Assembly: GCA_013287135.1 (NCBI GenBank)
Contig: JABDEK010000003.1
Span: forward strand, 1 to 64,000
DNA length: 64,000 nt
Origin: Acidobacteriota bacterium
GTDB lineage: Bacteria > Acidobacteriota > Terriglobia > Acidiferrales > UBA7541
Direction: 5' to 3'
Shown here piece after piece: positions 3,703-20,301 of this stretch (position 1 is its first letter; each line of letters opens with the position of its first letter). The notes below the pieces were generated by a model. The model had not been told where the DNA came from, did not search any database, and was given only the letters and a program-made list of their open reading frames with translations. A program made the translations under genes and the position numbers.

Positions 3703-4335
3703 TTAATTCTGCTTGATGGCAGGAGGAGCCTGCGTAATGCTGCCCGCAACCAGATCGGTCTTCAAGGTGATTTTTTGTTTCGGCAAAAGCTTCACATCCG
3801 TATTGAATTCCTGATATCCCGCTAAGGCAATTTTGATGTGATGATCGCCCGGGCTCACGAGCATTCCACGTCCCATCCCGCCGAACTGCTTCACGTAGCC
3901 TACGAAAGAGCCGTCGACGAATACGGCCGCGCGTTCGGGCGTGACCTTGAGCTTTATTTCCGAAGTAACGGTCGAGTATTCAGCCTTAGGATCTTTGTCC
4001 AGCCTCACGGTGACGATTAGTTTTTTGCCAGGCTCGACAACGAATGACTGCGTGGAATCTAGATAGCCTGTTTGGCGAAAGGAGATTTCGTGCGTGCCGG
4101 GCAGCAGCATCACCTTCTTGTCGTCTTTCAGCTCTGCGACGTAGCCCACGTATTGGCCGTCGATCCACACGCCCGCAGTTTTCTCAGCTTTGTCAGGCCC
4201 GATGAACTGTACTTCGCCCAAGACTTGGTTCGGTGCTTGCGCTTTTTGATTCTGGGCCGAAGCAACGAGCGGAATGAGGATGAGCGAAAGGAAGACCATT
4301 GGGATAGCTACAAATCCGCGCTTGATGATTTTCAT
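3703..4335 (-). CDS. Secreted protein with two PEGA domains
   Basis: A 210-residue exported protein. The start at 4335 is supported by CAGGAGTTGCC immediately upstream on the minus strand; a longer in-frame extension to 4446 lacks one. A signal peptide (KIIKRGFVAIPMVFLSLILIPL, cut after ASA) is followed by two similar beta-rich repeats: GVWIDGQYVGYV...LLPGTHEISFRQTGY at about residues 45-110, and AVFVDGSFVGYV...VSPGDHHIKIALAGY at about 125-185. This is the PEGA repeat, a surface-exposed beta-sandwich often attached to cell-wall or pilus-associated proteins. The last residues are Pro/Gln rich. Divergent from the CocE-like hydrolase gene. The biological partner is unknown. Confidence 0.8.
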   Translation of the reverse strand: MKIIKRGFVAIPMVFLSLILIPLVASAQNQKAQAPNQVLGEVQFIGPDKAEKTAGVWIDGQYVGYVAELKDDKKVMLLPGTHEISFRQTGYLDSTQSFVVEPGKKLIVTVRLDKDPKAEYSTVTSEIKLKVTPERAAVFVDGSFVGYVKQFGGMGRGMLVSPGDHHIKIALAGYQEFNTDVKLLPKQKITLKTDLVAGSITQAPPAIKQN

Positions 4336-4499
4336 GGCAACTCCTGTAATCAAAATTGAACTGGAATATCTAACCATATTTTCTGCTGAGCGGGACATTG
4401 AAACTACAAGCTCGAAGTATTTTCTTAGTTTTCCTGCTTGCATCAAACCTCAACCGCCGGTAGAACTGTCGGCCATACGACTCCAAAGCTCGAAACCAC

Positions 4500-4528
4500 T
4501 TGACCTTGAATTCGCTAAATTGTAGGGT
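4500..4528 (+). promoter_or_regulatory. Candidate sigma70 promoter for the CocE-like gene
   Basis: TTGACC (4500-4505), a 17-base spacer and TAGGGT (4523-4528). The predicted transcript start near 4535 lies about 33 bases before ATG 4568 and leaves GGAGG at 4555-4559 as ribosome site. Confidence 0.4.
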
Positions 4529-4567
4529 CTGCATGCACAAATCGGCCATCTCTTGGAGGCGGTCTTG

Positions 4568-6499
4568 ATGCGGCGTTCGGCGCCATATTTAATCTTCATC
4601 TTGATGCTTGTGTTTGTTCCACGCGTTTGGACGCGTGCTCACGCGGACTCCGCGCCAGAATTTAATGTAAAGGAACACTACACAAAATTTGAATTCCGGA
4701 TTCCCATGCGCGACGGGAAACTCCTCTTCACCTCGGTTTACGTTCCCAAGGATTCATCACGCAGCTATCCATTCATGGTCGACCGCACGCCCTACAGTGT
4801 CGCTCCGTACGGCGTCGATCAATACCGAAAGACGCTCGGACCTTCCGACGAGTTTCAGCGCGCTGGCTATATTTTCGTTTATCAAGATGTGCGCGGACGC
4901 TATATGTCGGAAGGAACATTTGTGGAGATGCGGCCGCACGTCGACGTCAAGAAATCCAAGGACGATGTGGACGACAGTAGCGACATGTATGACACGGTTG
5001 ATTGGCTGCTGAAAAACATTCCGAACAATAATGGCAAAGTGGGGATATGGGGAATCTCTTACCCGGGGTTTTACACCTCCGCCAGCATCATTGACTCGCA
5101 TCCGGCGATTAAAGCCGCTTCACCCGAAGCGCCCATGACCGACCTGTTCATGGGTGATGATGCGTATCACGGTGGTGCGTTCATGCTCGCTGCGAATTTT
5201 GGCTTTTACACTTTTTTCCGGCCGCAGCCCGTGCCGATCTTGCCGCAAAAAAACTCGCAGAGATTCGACTTCGGCACAGCCGATGGATACGATTTTTTCC
5301 TGAGAATGGGCTCGCTATCGGACGCGAAGGCTCTTTACTTCAAAGATCCCAACTGGCTCTGGGATGACCAGGTCGCTCATGATACTTACGACGATTACTG
5401 GAAAGCTCGCAATCTCGCGCCGCGCATGAAGAACATCCATTGTGCGGTGCTCACGGTGGGCGGCTGGTTTGACGCGGAAGATTTGCAGGGACCTTTTTCA
5501 ACACATGCCGCGATCGGCCGCAATAATCCGGACATCTACAACGGAATTGTAGTGGGCCCCTGGGTACATGGTGGTTGGTCGCGCTACGAGGGGAATCACC
5601 TCGGCAGTGTAAACTTCGCGTCCAATACAGGGCAATTTTTCCGAAGCCAAATCCTTTTTCCATTCTTCGAGCAGTACTTGAAGGGTGGCGCTGACGCGAA
5701 ATTGCCCGCGGCCTACGTGTTTGAAACGGGAACTAACACTTGGAGAGAGTATTCAACTTGGCCACCGAAGAATACTGAACCCAAAACATTATATTTTCGT
5801 GCGCATGGAAAACTTTCATTCGATGCACCAGGCGAGGTGGCGGGAGCGGCAGACGAATATGTCAGCGACCCAAATCGCCCGGTGCCGTTCGTCGGCTATC
5901 CGGCCACTTCCGTGCCCCAGGAATATATGGTCGCGGACCAACGGTTCGCCACGACCCGGCCCGATGTCCTGGTATTTCAGACCGAGCCGCTTGAGCAGGA
6001 CGTTACGATTGTTGGTCCGGTATCACCTAGGCTTTTTGTATCGACTTCCAGCACCGATTCGGACTGGGTTGTGAAACTGATCGACGTGTATCCCGAGGAC
6101 TATCCCGATGAGGCCGTACCCAACGCGACGCCGCCCAACGACGTAGGTCCACCAACAATTAAGGTTGCCGGCTTTGAGCAGCTAATTCGCGGGGAACCCA
6201 TGCGCGGGAAATTTCGGAAGAGCTTCGAGCATCCCGAAGCGTTTACTCCGGGCGAGGTTGAAAAAGTGGATTTCACCATGCCAGACATAAATCATACTTT
6301 CCGCCGAGGACATCGGATCATGGTGCAGGTGCAAAGTTCATGGTTTCCCTTGATCGATCGGAACCCTCAAGTTTTCGAAAATATCCCTGACGCCAAGCCT
6401 GCAGATTTCCAGAAAGCTACCGAGCGAGTGTATCGAAGTAAAGATCAACCCTCGGGAATTAAAGTTCAAGTGCTGCCTTCGAGCGCTGGCGGCGGTTAA
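4568..6499 (+). CDS. CocE/NonD family hydrolase (X-Pro dipeptidyl-peptidase type), exported
   Basis: A 643-residue alpha/beta hydrolase of the S15/CocE family, which cleaves esters or acyl-amide bonds (cocaine esterase, glutaryl acylase, X-Pro peptidases). The start at ATG 4568 follows GGAGG (4555-4559). A signal peptide ends near RAHADS. The nucleophile elbow is GIWGISYPG, with Ser at about residue 164. Candidate acid and base are in GGWFDAED and GPWVHGGW. The family's C-terminal jelly-roll domain is recognisable from PLEQDVTIVGPVSPRLFVST to FRRGHRIMVQVQSSWFP. The natural substrate cannot be predicted; scavenging of peptides or esters outside the cytoplasm fits the signal peptide. It forms a single-gene unit, convergent with the rhomboid gene. 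Confidence 0.88.
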   Translation: MRRSAPYLIFILMLVFVPRVWTRAHADSAPEFNVKEHYTKFEFRIPMRDGKLLFTSVYVPKDSSRSYPFMVDRTPYSVAPYGVDQYRKTLGPSDEFQRAGYIFVYQDVRGRYMSEGTFVEMRPHVDVKKSKDDVDDSSDMYDTVDWLLKNIPNNNGKVGIWGISYPGFYTSASIIDSHPAIKAASPEAPMTDLFMGDDAYHGGAFMLAANFGFYTFFRPQPVPILPQKNSQRFDFGTADGYDFFLRMGSLSDAKALYFKDPNWLWDDQVAHDTYDDYWKARNLAPRMKNIHCAVLTVGGWFDAEDLQGPFSTHAAIGRNNPDIYNGIVVGPWVHGGWSRYEGNHLGSVNFASNTGQFFRSQILFPFFEQYLKGGADAKLPAAYVFETGTNTWREYSTWPPKNTEPKTLYFRAHGKLSFDAPGEVAGAADEYVSDPNRPVPFVGYPATSVPQEYMVADQRFATTRPDVLVFQTEPLEQDVTIVGPVSPRLFVSTSSTDSDWVVKLIDVYPEDYPDEAVPNATPPNDVGPPTIKVAGFEQLIRGEPMRGKFRKSFEHPEAFTPGEVEKVDFTMPDINHTFRRGHRIMVQVQSSWFPLIDRNPQVFENIPDAKPADFQKATERVYRSKDQPSGIKVQVLPSSAGGG

Positions 6500-14436: not shown

Positions 14437-15111
14437 GTGCGGATCGACGTGACGCCGCGGAAAACCGGACCAGATATTCGCCCATTCGAAAACAGGCCGC
14501 TAATAATCGGCATATGCGGAGGCTCGGGATCGGGAAAGACCACGATCACGCGCCGAATTATCGAAGCACTCTCCTCCAGCAACGTCATCGTTTTGCAGCA
14601 AGACAATTACTACAAAGACTTTCCCGGCTTGCCGTTTAAAGAGCGTATCAAACTGAATTTTGACCATCCTGATTCGATGGACACGCTCTTGCTTGCAGAG
14701 CATGTGCGCCGGTTGCGCGCGGGGGAGACTATCCAACGCCCGACCTATGATTTTGCCGATTATAGGCGGCTGAGCGAGGCCGTCGAAATTCCTCCGCGCT
14801 CCAGCATTATTGTGGAAGGAATTTTGATCTTCGACGATGAAGCTCTCCGCAGTTTGATGGACATTAAAATTTTCGTAGATACCGACGCCGATTTAAGATT
14901 TATTCGGCGTTTGGTGCGCGATATCCGCGAAAGAGGACGCACCATGGATATGGTCGTTAAGCAATATATGGCGACTGTGAGGCCTATGCACATGGAATTC
15001 GTCGAGCCTTCAAAGCGGTATGCCGACGTTATTATTCCGGAGGGCGGATATAACGAGGTGGGAATCGATCTGGTGATTCAAAAGATCAAATCGCTAGCGC
15101 CTAGGGGCTAG
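14437..15111 (+). CDS. udk: Uridine kinase
   Basis: 224 residues with the P-loop GICGGSGSGKTT at residues 25-36, followed by LQQDNYYKDF and FDHPDSMDTLLL, all typical of uridine/cytidine kinase, which phosphorylates uridine and cytidine with ATP or GTP in pyrimidine salvage. The lid region RLVRDIRERGRTMD is also present. The GTG start at 14437 lies 13 bases after the ppdK stop, so it probably shares that transcript. The first 20 residues are a short extension before the conserved core. Confidence 0.93.
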   Translation: MRIDVTPRKTGPDIRPFENRPLIIGICGGSGSGKTTITRRIIEALSSSNVIVLQQDNYYKDFPGLPFKERIKLNFDHPDSMDTLLLAEHVRRLRAGETIQRPTYDFADYRRLSEAVEIPPRSSIIVEGILIFDDEALRSLMDIKIFVDTDADLRFIRRLVRDIRERGRTMDMVVKQYMATVRPMHMEFVEPSKRYADVIIPEGGYNEVGIDLVIQKIKSLAPRG

Positions 15112-15621: not shown

Positions 15622-17985
15622 CTAAGTCGGCATTTTCAAGAAGAAGTAAACCGCTAGGAAACCGAAGATCGCATCCGGCGCCCACCCGGCAAGCAATGGC
15701 GGCAACTGTCCAACCGATCCCATGGCCTCGAAGAGCGCGGCGGTCGCCCAATAGACAATTCCAATGCAGACGGCGACAGCCAGTCCTCCGACCGCGCCGC
15801 GAGTCCCGACCAGAAAAGCAAATGGCGCGCCGAGGAACACGATAATCGCCGCGATTAGAGGGAACGCGAACTTCTTTTGCCATTGGACAGACAGCCGCGA
15901 AGTATCGAAACCTGCCTGGCGCAGACTTGCGATGTACTGTCCTAATTGCCGCCAATTCATCTGAGCCGACTGGCGAACCTCTCTGCGGAAATAGCTGGGT
16001 GCTTCGGTTAGTTCAGGAAGCGAGTTGACCTTAAATGGCGTATAGCGCGTGACCTTGTTGCCATCGAAATCGCGGATCCATCCACCTGTGAGTACCCAAG
16101 CGTTCTCGGTGGCCTCCCAAGTGGCGCGCGTGGCAAAAACGCGGCGGCGCATCTGGAAAGTATTGGGATCGAGCTCGAAAATGCTCAGCCCGCCGAAAAG
16201 CTGGCGCTCCCAATCGAAAAGTTCGTAATTAAAAATTTTGTCATTCTCCCCGAATATCCACTGGTGCGCGGGTTGAAAATACGTTTGTGCCGGACGTCCC
16301 TTAATTTCGTTGCGAAGAGCGTCCTGCCGCTGATTTGCGTAGGGGAGAAAGGTGTCATCCAGAAGAAACATTCCAGCCGCGATGATGCAGCCTGCCAACG
16401 TGAGCGGAAGGACAATTCGGTAGAGACTCACGCCACTGGCCTTGAAGGCTATTACTTCATTATTTTTCGCCAGAACAGCGAGTGTCACCAACGTGGCTAC
16501 CAGCGATGCTAGCGGCGAAAGCTGATACACCATGAGCGGCACGAGGTATCGAAAATAATTGAGGACCATGAATGCCGGAATGTGGTTCTTGGAAATATCG
16601 CCCAAGAGATCGAATAGCGTGAACGCATCGAAGATCAGCACGAAACCTGCGAGCAGCACGAGAAAGTAGTAAAAGAACTGCTGCAGTAAATACATGTCCA
16701 TCAGCATGGGGAACGCTACAGAGCTGCCGGCGCCTGTTTCCTGTCGAACTTTGAGTGCGGGGGCAACCAGGCTCGCTGAGCCATTCGAGATCGGACCATT
16801 CGATATACGGATGGGTGCTGCATCGGATTCCAGGCGCTGGGACTTTCGCTGCCGCGAAAAAATGGATTCCAACGCGCCGGTGATGCGGTTCGGCTTGCGA
16901 ATGTTTTCAATTCGACGCAGAAAGATAAATCCTACGATTGCGGCCACGATGTTCGCTTCCCAAATGCCGGCCCAGGGAGCGAGCGATCCTTGCTGCGCCA
17001 TGTGCGCGCCGGTGACAAAAAGAAAATAATAGCCACCGATCAGCACCAAGGTGAGAACCAGTCCAGCCGCTCGGCCCCCGCGGCGAGGCCGCACTCCAAC
17101 CGGAACGCCCAAGAGCGCGAAAATCAAGCACGCGGCGGGGAAAGCGATACGTCGATGAAACTCCACGCGCGCGTCGCGCCAGTTTGGCCCTTTATCCGCC
17201 AAAAGCCCGGAGACGGATTTCTCAGCATCGGTAAACGCTGTGGACTTGATGGCGCTTGTGGAAGCCGAAATGTCGATGGGAATATCGCTTTTGCCGAAGG
17301 TGGTGACACTATAATGGTCCGGCTCGTGGGGATCGTAATCGTGCGTGCCGCCGGGGCCGAGATGAAGTTCTATCTGGTCCCGTTGCGGTCCGGCCACTAC
17401 TTGCGCGTCCTGTGCCAGCGTTATATTCGATGTGGCACTAGCTTGAGCCGACGAGGCCAGGAAAACGCCGCGCCAACGTGTGGCCGCGGCTTCCACATCT
17501 TGTACGTATAATACGAAGTGCGGAAAGCGCTCGTCGAACACACGCGGCTGCACCGCAAAAGGCACTTGGGAAGAAAGAACCTTTTGTTCAAGTTTGCCGA
17601 GTGTGCGCCAGGATAGCGGGATGATCCAGAACGTAAGCACCAGAGTCAGGAGCCCGCAGCTCGCTGCTACGAATCCGATGGGAAGTAGCAGCCGGCGCAT
17701 GCTGATGCCGGAAGCGTGAATGGCGACGATCTCGCTATCGGCAGAAAGCCGGCCGAGCCCGATAAGAACTCCCACGAGCACAGCCATCGGAATGGTGAAT
17801 GCGAGCACCGGCGCCAGCGAACAGAGAAACAAAAGAGCGACTGTTCCGATGCCACCAGAGTGGCGAACGACCAAATCCATCAAGCGTACAAGTTGCGGCA
17901 CGAAGAAAACGAAAGTGAAGACAGCGAGGCCAAGGATGGAATGCGAGGCTACTTCGCGGCCAATATATTTATCAAGCAGGCGCAT
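15622..17985 (-). CDS. LptF-LptG fusion: LPS export ABC transporter permease
   Basis: A 787-residue protein made of two complete YjgP/YjgQ permease domains. The first (about 1-355) starts LLDKYIGREVASHSILG and contains AIHASGISMRRLLLP. The second (about 405-787) starts MDMYLLQQFFYYFLV and contains AFKASGVSLYRIVLP. Each half has the family's N-terminal helices, a periplasmic jelly-roll domain and C-terminal helices, joined by a Ser/Asn-rich linker at about 360-405. In most bacteria LptF and LptG are separate proteins of 350-390 residues that heterodimerise and, with LptB2 and LptC, extract LPS from the inner membrane. No lptB, lptC or lptA is in the window. Transcribed divergently from the GH57 gene. 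Confidence 0.9.
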   Translation of the reverse strand: MRLLDKYIGREVASHSILGLAVFTFVFFVPQLVRLMDLVVRHSGGIGTVALLFLCSLAPVLAFTIPMAVLVGVLIGLGRLSADSEIVAIHASGISMRRLLLPIGFVAASCGLLTLVLTFWIIPLSWRTLGKLEQKVLSSQVPFAVQPRVFDERFPHFVLYVQDVEAAATRWRGVFLASSAQASATSNITLAQDAQVVAGPQRDQIELHLGPGGTHDYDPHEPDHYSVTTFGKSDIPIDISASTSAIKSTAFTDAEKSVSGLLADKGPNWRDARVEFHRRIAFPAACLIFALLGVPVGVRPRRGGRAAGLVLTLVLIGGYYFLFVTGAHMAQQGSLAPWAGIWEANIVAAIVGFIFLRRIENIRKPNRITGALESIFSRQRKSQRLESDAAPIRISNGPISNGSASLVAPALKVRQETGAGSSVAFPMLMDMYLLQQFFYYFLVLLAGFVLIFDAFTLFDLLGDISKNHIPAFMVLNYFRYLVPLMVYQLSPLASLVATLVTLAVLAKNNEVIAFKASGVSLYRIVLPLTLAGCIIAAGMFLLDDTFLPYANQRQDALRNEIKGRPAQTYFQPAHQWIFGENDKIFNYELFDWERQLFGGLSIFELDPNTFQMRRRVFATRATWEATENAWVLTGGWIRDFDGNKVTRYTPFKVNSLPELTEAPSYFRREVRQSAQMNWRQLGQYIASLRQAGFDTSRLSVQWQKKFAFPLIAAIIVFLGAPFAFLVGTRGAVGGLAVAVCIGIVYWATAALFEAMGSVGQLPPLLAGWAPDAIFGFLAVYFFLKMPT

Positions 17986-18099: not shown

Positions 18100-20301
18100 T
18101 TGAGCCGCGTTAATCTCGCCATCCTTTGGCACATGCATCAACCGCAGTACCGCGAGCCGTTCACCGGACGCTACATGCTGCCGTGGACGCGTTTGCACGC
18201 ACTCAAAGACTACTGGGGCATGGTGAAAATTCTGGGAGAATTCCCCGGGGTACATGCGACTTTCAATTTCGTCCCGCTACTCGCTGCGCAAATTGAGGAA
18301 TACGCCAGCGGCAAGTTTCAGGAACCGTGGTTCGAGCTGGCCTTTGCGCCAACGGAATCGCTCGAGCCTCCGCAGAAACGCGAAATACTCGAGCGCGCAT
18401 TTCAAGTGAACGAAAACTTCGTGCGACGCTGGCCGCGATTTGCCGAGCTGCAAGCACAAGTTAGAACAGCCGGCGTGGAATCCTGCGTTGCGCGGTTCGA
18501 CCTGCGCGATTGGCGCGATTTGCAATTGCTTTCGCAACTCGCCTGGATGGACGAGGAGTACATCGCGAAAGATCCGGTAGTAACCGAATTGTCGCGTAAA
18601 GGCGCTAATTACGCGGAAAAAGACAAGGCTGCTCTGCGAGACAAGCAACTGGAACTGCTCGGCGCTGTGTTACCGGAGTACAGGCTGGCCGCAGAGCGAG
18701 GCCAGATCGAAATTTCTACCACGCCCTATTATCATCCGATCCTTCCTCTACTTTGTGACACGGACATCGCGCGAGTATCGAATCCGCAGTCGCCATTGCC
18801 GCATCCGGCATTTCGGCATCCGGAAGATGCGCGTGAACAGTTGCTGCGCTCGCGGCAATATCACGAGCGCGTCTTTGGAAAACCGCCGGTGGGATTATGG
18901 CCCTCGGAAGGATCGGTTTCCGATCAAGCGCTCGAAATTGCCATGGAACTCGGCTTCAAATGGTTTGCCACGGACGAAGGTGTGCTCGGCCGGACGCGAA
19001 ACATTGGCTTCTGGCGCGACGCTTCCGGCTATCCGCAAAACGGTCCGGATCTATATTCACCTTGGAATTTGCAACGCGGCGGAAAAACGCTCACTGGATT
19101 CTTCAGGGATCATTACGTGTCCGACCTCGTTGGCTTTGTGTACAGCCGCATGGGAGCGACAGCGGCGGCTGAAGACCTACATCGCAGAATCCGCGCGATT
19201 GGCGACCGCCAGCCCGCAGGCAGCCCGGCGACCGTCAGCATTGTTCTGGACGGAGAAAATGCCTGGGAATTTTACGCTGAGAACGGCCGGGATTTTCTGC
19301 GGCAATTTTACCGCCGCGTGCAGGACGATCCCGAGATTCATGCCTTAACCATGAGCGAAGCGGCGGAAGCGCGCCCCGACGCTCCGAAACTCGACGGAAT
19401 TTTCCCGGCTTCCTGGATCAATGCGAATTTCGACGTGTGGATCGGCCACCCGGAAGATGTTCGCGCTTGGGATTTGCTGCGCGACGCGCGCGATACGTAC
19501 GAAAAGATCGTACAGCGCGCCGCTTCAAACGATGCAGTCGCGCCGGCCAGCTCTACGTTATCAGCCGACTCCGCGACGCGCGCCTACGAAGCACTGCTGG
19601 CCGCAGAAGGCAGCGACTGGTGCTGGTGGTACGGCCCGGAACATGCTTCCGCCAACGATGCGGAATTCGACGAGCTATATCGCCAACATCTCAAGGAAGT
19701 TTACATCGCGCTCGGTGAACATGTTCCCGACGCTCTTCTGCATCCCATCAAACGTGCGCCGGAACGCGCGCATCGTGAATCTCCGCAAACTTTCTTAGAC
19801 GTCAAAGTGGACGGCCGCGAGAGCAGCTACTTCGAATGGCTAGGCGCCGGATTTTATGTTACCGACCAGCGCAGCGGCAGCATGCACGGACGCAGTTGCG
19901 TCCTAGGCCAATTGCATTACGGATTCGGGCCCGAGCATTTCTACCTGCGTGTTGACCCTACCGAAGCGATCGCCGATATTCCCGATTTTCAATTCCGCTT
20001 AACCCTATGGGATTCGCGAGAAACCCACCTTACTGTGCGTGTGACCAGAGGCAAATTCGCAGGCTGCATCCTGGAACAAGGGGGAGCCTGTTTGTTGCGC
20101 CCAGAATCGGTAGTATCGGCGGCCTACGACAAAATCATTGAAGTGAGCCTAGCGCGCGAATTGTTTGACCTGAAGAATCGCAAATCTTTGCTACTAAGCG
20201 TTGCATTATGGGAAGGCGGCCTCCCCATTGATGTCCTGCCCATCGACGGAATGCTCGAGCTGAATTTAGGTGAAGAGAATTTTGCCTGGAGCGCCACCTG
20301 A
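18100..20301 (+). CDS. Glycoside hydrolase family 57 protein
   Basis: 733 residues. GH57 landmarks: motif 1 HMHQP near the N-terminus (residues 11-15); GLWPSEGSVSD with the likely nucleophile Glu270; and IVLDGENAWEFY with the likely acid Asp384. These enzymes hydrolyse or transfer alpha-1,4 or alpha-1,6 glucan bonds (amylopullulanase, branching enzyme, glucanotransferase). After the TIM-barrel-like domain come helical segments and a beta-rich C-terminal domain (about 570-733). No signal peptide, so it probably acts on cytoplasmic glycogen-like glucans. TTG 18100 is used because the protein begins exactly at the conserved RVNLAILWHMHQP strand; GGAAGG lies upstream. Confidence 0.88.
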   Translation: MSRVNLAILWHMHQPQYREPFTGRYMLPWTRLHALKDYWGMVKILGEFPGVHATFNFVPLLAAQIEEYASGKFQEPWFELAFAPTESLEPPQKREILERAFQVNENFVRRWPRFAELQAQVRTAGVESCVARFDLRDWRDLQLLSQLAWMDEEYIAKDPVVTELSRKGANYAEKDKAALRDKQLELLGAVLPEYRLAAERGQIEISTTPYYHPILPLLCDTDIARVSNPQSPLPHPAFRHPEDAREQLLRSRQYHERVFGKPPVGLWPSEGSVSDQALEIAMELGFKWFATDEGVLGRTRNIGFWRDASGYPQNGPDLYSPWNLQRGGKTLTGFFRDHYVSDLVGFVYSRMGATAAAEDLHRRIRAIGDRQPAGSPATVSIVLDGENAWEFYAENGRDFLRQFYRRVQDDPEIHALTMSEAAEARPDAPKLDGIFPASWINANFDVWIGHPEDVRAWDLLRDARDTYEKIVQRAASNDAVAPASSTLSADSATRAYEALLAAEGSDWCWWYGPEHASANDAEFDELYRQHLKEVYIALGEHVPDALLHPIKRAPERAHRESPQTFLDVKVDGRESSYFEWLGAGFYVTDQRSGSMHGRSCVLGQLHYGFGPEHFYLRVDPTEAIADIPDFQFRLTLWDSRETHLTVRVTRGKFAGCILEQGGACLLRPESVVSAAYDKIIEVSLARELFDLKNRKSLLLSVALWEGGLPIDVLPIDGMLELNLGEENFAWSAT

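Follow-up and report, generated by a model that had tools for sequence, protein, structure and literature searches.

LptF and LptG are fused in a single polypeptide encoded within the window (by which we mean the whole 64,000-nucleotide stretch of soil-bacterium DNA analysed here), and this fusion is general in the Acidobacteriota as sampled. Our interpretation, in which we place high confidence, is that one chain supplies both transmembrane subunits of the LPS-extracting ABC transporter LptB2FG, joined by a cytoplasmic basic linker, and that its partner is a chain in which LptC and LptA are fused as well. The domains and the machine are known, and proteins of such length are presumably already in public databases, for instance under the name LptF/LptG family permease; it is the covalent arrangement that is new. 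The features discussed below are collected in Table 1.

Table 1. Coordinates of the lptFG gene, its parts and neighbours, and the LptC-LptA fusion of the same genome (window positions unless a locus is named)
Feature	Position	Strand	Basis or description
lptFG fusion gene	15622..17985	-	One open frame, two PF03739 domains; 787 codons + stop
LptF-like half, residues 1-360	16906..17985	-	TIGR04407 over 3-357, hydropathy segments, tree
Linker, residues about 361-424	16714..16905	-	No TM segment, positively charged, poorly conserved
LptG-like half, residues 425-787	15625..16713	-	TIGR04408 over 429-784, tree
Glu85, column of E. coli LptF Glu84	17731..17733	-	Alignment
Glu510, column of E. coli LptG Glu88	16456..16458	-	Alignment
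Uridine kinase-like neighbour, non-lpt	14437..15111	+	
Glycoside hydrolase family 57 neighbour, divergent, non-lpt	18100..20301	+	
LptC-LptA fusion (L132)	4051-6387 of locus L132 (G000, contig C1)	-	One frame, about 780-788 codons

In the ORF reading of the window, the lptFG frame opens with an ATG and runs through 787 residues with no internal stops. A Pfam scan places PF03739 twice in the protein (whole-protein E 1.2e-155), and in a profile search of the genome the halves appear as separate matches of 266.1 and 264.1 bits (gathering score 27.9), the only two PF03739 copies found in the 4.38 Mb draft genome to which the window belongs. The intact frame and the doubled domain bear out the claim of the initial annotation that two full permease domains lie on one polypeptide. 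Its proposed domain search of each half, which finds PF03739 in both, also tells the halves apart: the N-terminal half scores 223.7 bits with the LptF model TIGR04407 versus 140.7 with the LptG model TIGR04408, and the C-terminal half scores 221.9 bits with TIGR04408 versus 108.9 with TIGR04407. The whole protein lies above both curated cut-offs (322.5 versus 230 for TIGR04407 and 351.6 versus 240 for TIGR04408), and each half taken singly lies slightly below its own equivalog cut-off (223.7 versus 230 for the N-terminal half with LptF, 221.9 versus 240 for the C-terminal half with LptG). A scan for promoters and terminators gave nothing beyond chance level.

To place the halves among known LptF and LptG proteins, we built a tree from 27 fusions, chosen for their spread over the phylum and split in halves, together with eight reference rows (LptF and LptG of E. 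coli, Sphingomonas, and Fusobacterium, LptF of Azospirillum, and LptF/G of Parabacteroides). Every N-terminal half falls with LptF and every C-terminal half with LptG, the split having a support of 99/91. The curated models and the tree thus agree on the order proposed initially, LptF-like first and LptG second, and by these comparisons the protein is a fusion of two old paralogues, LptF and LptG. Searches with solved structures are less uniform. All solved LptF sequences listed by phmmer match the N-terminal half (6mit_F over residues 4-349, E 3e-18). Of the solved LptG sequences listed, 9doh_G (429-781) and 8frl_G (445-746) match best in the C-terminal half, and the other six have their best-scoring stretch, in plain phmmer, at about residues 2-127 of the N-terminal half; phmmer alone would therefore not settle which half is LptG, which the curated models and the tree do.

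The tree fixes the identity of the halves, not the number of joining events. The C-terminal halves form one group (support 94/84). The N-terminal halves do not, and well-supported branches force two label changes, which counts against a single fusion event. L109_F, on a very long branch, lies outside the other N-terminal halves (owing to the position at which the script cut L109, its F part retains some LptG residues), and the LptF references stand among the rest with weak support. Many branches of the tree are long, and the program issued a general warning to that effect. As to how the genes could have been joined, in E. coli, where lptF precedes lptG as in the fusion, the overlap of the two genes is one base, so loss of the lptF stop together with a change of frame would suffice.

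The linker joins both domains as the initial annotation had described, at a length of about 65-70 residues (about 360-424) rather than the 45 given there. A frameshift or missed stop at residues 355-410, which by the initial annotation would have refuted the fusion, is not borne out: the linker proved open in 11 aligned sequences and in most genomes of the phylum. Between the window and its close relatives, identity is 36% over residues 366-424 and 79% over the remainder. Among 89 distinct phylum fusions with both boundaries aligned, linker length ranges from 24 to 83 residues (median 51), the composition is rich in Arg, Ala, Leu, Ser, Gly, and Pro, the mean net charge is +6.7, and a strongly hydrophobic stretch is absent from 88 linkers, the exception being L078. 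These 89 derive from 110 ORFs matched by both halves, a number that includes repeat views of one gene; in L105 and L106, which are additional ORFs, only the G half gave a match. The known topology of LptF and LptG requires a cytoplasmic place for the linker and, together with the basic charge and the lack of a TM segment, makes a cytoplasmic location most likely. The LptC helix lies between LptF TM5 and LptG TM1, on the side of LPS entry, according to the available text of PMC10094684. Because the linker runs from LptF TM6 to LptG TM1, it would span the cytoplasmic foot of this side. The 1:1 ratio of LptF to LptG put forward in the initial annotation would follow, provided that the chain stays uncut after translation.

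Glu84 of E. coli LptF and Glu88 of its LptG share one alignment column, and the residue at this position, we assume, faces or contacts LptB. Both halves of the window protein carry a Glu in this coupling region, and it is kept in the four other fusions aligned except in the C-terminal half of L087, which has Gln. The coupling helices are described in the portion of PMC6703430 available to us, in which that residue number is not mentioned. An AlphaFold2 model of the fusion, made with ten sequences, is poor (mean pLDDT 45.6), so the topology rests on homology and hydropathy; despite this, the secondary structure in the model runs helices-strands-helices, repeated twice. Each subunit would comprise six TM helices and a periplasmic β domain, with its ends in the cytoplasm, a plan on which hydropathy and homology agree.

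The phylogenetic range of the fusion, which the initial annotation had singled out for checking, extends through the phylum as sampled. Both domains lie in one open frame in 33 of the 36 related genomes with a match (41 were searched, up to class level) and in 62 of 63 genomes mainly from other families, this second set having been drawn mainly from families without frames listed in the phylum-wide search. Counted among the 62 is G331, in which the contig runs out after LptG position 100. The four exceptions overall comprise two cuts at contig ends (in G007 the match starts at the third base of the contig, and in G141 the contig stops after the first half), one frameshift (G019, with LptF and the first 115 LptG positions in one frame before the break), and one lone partial match (G036). 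Across the phylum, a match is present in 293 of 297 genomes, frames being seen for the best matches listed. When the three surveys are pooled, a fusion-length frame occurs in at least one genome for 88 of the 90 families (f1-f90); the other two, f9 with one partial match and f12 with none, are represented by one genome each. For families covered by the phylum-wide search only, some rows give one of the two matches, and we relied on a frame length of 756-909 codons.

Eleven of 12 relative loci (Acidobacteria, Candidatus Acidiferrales, and Terriglobia) match over residues 1-787; L070 has a frameshift in its LptG half, and L071 is a partial match. These loci lie partly on the same contigs as the surveyed genomes and are not counted as additional evidence. 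L070 and L071 were left out of alignment A1, and A2 was made without L069 (masked stretch) as well. The viral contigs scanned held no relative. Partial matches turned up in 10 plasmid records, in none of which did a single location cover as much as 80% of the query, so that this poor sample showed no fusion outside the phylum.

Individual genomes show further variation. G051 has a free-standing LptF/G copy of 362 codons (L073, G051:C48) in addition to the fused one, and G055 has fusion-length frames on two contigs, C163 and C134. Frames of about 890-940 codons in G051, G061, G046, and G048 (L115, L118, L075, and L074) encode fusions whose LptF half seems to carry long insertions. The LptFG fusions of family f33 (G066, G079, G136, and G221) are strongly divergent, with best PF03739 E values of 1e-19 to 1e-38; LptC was not detected in two of these genomes, G066 and G079.

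We also searched for the rest of the machine. LptB exceeds its cut-off in 23 of 26 relatives, including the genome of the window (G000:C1 23321-24031, 347 bits versus 240). The LptC search likewise has a match in 23 of the 26, in long frames save one (G015, 148). In the genome of the window, LptC and LptA share one frame on a different contig (C1) from lptFG, and lptB, rpoN, and rapZ come next. In the encoded protein, a single hydrophobic segment at the N terminus is accompanied by an LptC domain at 20-195 and four LptA/LptD_N stretches, and the protein exceeds the curated cut-offs for both LptC (TIGR04409, 67.9 versus 38) and LptA (TIGR03002, 73.1 versus 71.7). PF06835 and PF03968 both exceed their gathering scores in all 10 further proteins that we chose from 30 loci. 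Phylum-wide, an LptC match was obtained for 87 of the 149 genomes searched and none for the other 62; the frames concerned have 545-1349 codons save for G161 (300, in a frame that looks interrupted) and G078 (449), and a few weak LptC matches are probably LptD. Where LptC is detected, fusion to LptA-like domains is the usual state in the phylum, the fused proteins having about 600-850 residues.

The 30 loci were picked for their LptC match; in 28, a long frame is directly followed by an LptB frame, with stop-free spans ranging from a 248-base overlap to a 68-base gap. In L164 the long frame before LptB is not the LptC one, and in L157 and L162 LptB was not seen. No free-standing LptA was seen in 20 genomes, 17 of which have PF03968, always in frames of at least 648 codons. 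The PF03968 search had no match in G066, G136, and G146, and the LptC-bearing protein of G146 has the domain on direct scan; the search is thus not fully sensitive and may have overlooked a divergent free LptA. When 14 LptCA proteins are made into a profile, it hits solved LptA/LptH with passing stretches at positions 623-747 and 547-656 and solved LptD with one at 191-272. Additional LptA hits, at about 217-265, pass as whole sequences only. In several families, a distance of about 20-24 kb separates lptFG from lptCA on a shared contig (G146:C3, G164:C1, G081:C7, G067:C50, G182:C43, and G080:C36), a proximity that hints at an ancestral neighborhood.

In 27 of the 30 loci, the LptCA chain after its hydrophobic segment measures 567-832 residues (median 712), equivalent to LptC and a further 2.6-4.2 times the length of mature E. 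coli LptA. These figures were obtained without L164 (interrupted frame) and without L153 and L162 (below the hydrophobicity threshold; L162 is LptD-like). In the available text of PMC5575297, periplasmic LptF/G, LptC, one LptA, and LptD together span about 16 nm, or about 4 nm per unit, and the periplasm measures 21 nm. On this scale, the acidobacterial LptCA chain taken together with LptF and LptD would extend over about 22-29 nm, a rough estimate from chain length that insertions would shorten. The number of LptA units in the E. coli LPS bridge is presented as an open question in the parts of PMC10094684 and PMC5575297 at hand. We consider it an even call that the acidobacterial LPS bridge is made of two covalent fusions, LptF-LptG and LptC-LptA(n), in which the periplasmic part is one chain of fixed length, anchored in the membrane, that extends to LptD with no LptA oligomers involved, such that length and stoichiometry are encoded in the genes. 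A complex with a single LptA can bridge the typical E. coli intermembrane distance of 100 Å, as stated in the accessible portion of PMC6164715, which counts against the need for so long a bridge.

Several other explanations of the fused frame have to be weighed. The source genome is a draft (194 contigs, 79% complete), in which an assembly or sequencing error could have joined two genes, but the same fusion is found across the phylum in many other assemblies, some of them single-contig. This recurrence in the surveyed genomes refutes such an error, to which we assign a negligible chance. The nearly equal scores of the halves for the same Pfam family would suit a recent tandem duplication of one LptF/G gene, yielding a pseudo-homodimer. 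The halves, however, score best in different curated models and lie on opposite sides of the LptF/LptG split, and with both the TIGR models and the tree placement disfavoring it, a recent duplication is exceedingly improbable. One frame might also yield two proteins, an ordinary LptF and an ordinary LptG, through an internal LptG start in the linker or a protease cut. All 11 aligned sequences have Met427, which immediately precedes LptG TM1, and poor conservation of the linker is what a cleavable stretch could show. Yet when these 11 sequences were inspected by eye, nothing clearly resembling a Shine-Dalgarno motif appeared at the normal spacing upstream of Met427, just 27 of the 89 phylum fusions have a Met close to where LptG begins, and separate production of LptG would leave no need for the frame to stay open throughout the phylum. 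An internal LptG start is therefore not supported by either the upstream sequence or the distribution of Met, and we regard the production of two proteins as unlikely, although it is the least improbable of these alternatives.

A different kind of alternative concerns the cargo, which could be an envelope lipid other than LPS. An Lpt-like system exists in Borrelia, a bacterium without LPS (PMC10353723, available text), and neither LpxC nor LptD was found in the window's own incomplete genome. Against this, 23 of the 26 relatives have LpxC, which acts in lipid A synthesis, and 21 have LptD, and we judge another cargo to be very unlikely. The reading that we favor is thus a single LptF-LptG chain serving LPS export.

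For this single chain, we infer the topology, assembly, and transport of LPS as follows. The LptF part would contribute three TM helices, a periplasmic β domain, and three more TM helices, ending in the cytoplasm. From there, the flexible basic linker would lead to LptG TM1, and LptG would repeat the plan of LptF. Placed, by comparison with solved systems, on the side of LPS entry and of the LptC helix (LptF TM5/LptG TM1), the linker may hold this side together without blocking it. In the periplasm, LptC and several LptA-like β domains in one membrane-anchored chain would pass LPS on to LptD.

These fusions bear on published gene surveys. In the part of PMC8871954 available to us, lptF and lptG are "apparently lacking" in Acidobacteria; the criteria for retaining hits included E-value, length, and profile coverage. 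A double-length protein would easily be lost at a length criterion, and the fusion may explain the reported absence of lptF and lptG. LptF/LptG are reported in one acidobacterial clade in PMC8787282, whose available text does not mention a fusion. PMC11130926, which mentions LptF, LptG, fused, and Acidobacteriota, concerns other fusions in the sections available, and "lptCA" in the corresponding part of PMC4986956 denotes two E. coli genes. We found no description of a natural LptF-LptG or LptC-LptA fusion in the available text of the open-access literature searched. Surveys that infer the history of LPS or the outer membrane from gene presence should allow for fused genes. A phylum with one-chain LptC-LptA and LptF-LptG is also a naturally occurring case of fixed, measurable stoichiometry and length, and for structural work a single-chain LptFG could ease purification of a balanced complex.

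Three known systems come closest. The E. coli LptB2FGC complex (PDB 6mhu and others) has the same two domains in the same order, with full-length model matches and the coupling-region Glu; its LptF and LptG come from two overlapping genes, whereas the acidobacterial protein is one polypeptide with a basic linker. The contrast drawn initially with separate, adjacent genes in most Gram-negatives holds for E. coli, Sphingomonas, and Fusobacterium, the three in which we checked it: lptF and lptG overlap by four bases in Sphingomonas and lie in overlapping stop-free frames in Fusobacterium. Separate chains from adjacent genes characterize the well-studied members rather than the fold itself. The diderm Firmicutes resemble the Acidobacteriota in having one gene for the permease part, but according to the available text of PMC5007114 this is a single LptF/G homologue beside two OstA-domain proteins of about 200 amino acids, maybe LptA and LptC, whereas the acidobacterial chain has two domains. 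The LptCA region shares the order lptB, rpoN, rapZ with the E. coli series lptC-lptA-lptB-rpoN-hpf-ptsN-rapZ and differs from it in that lptC and lptA form one frame and hpf and ptsN are absent between rpoN and rapZ. The machine that exports LPS to the outer membrane, built from separate pieces in E. coli, thus consists of fewer, longer chains in the Acidobacteriota, apparently throughout the phylum.
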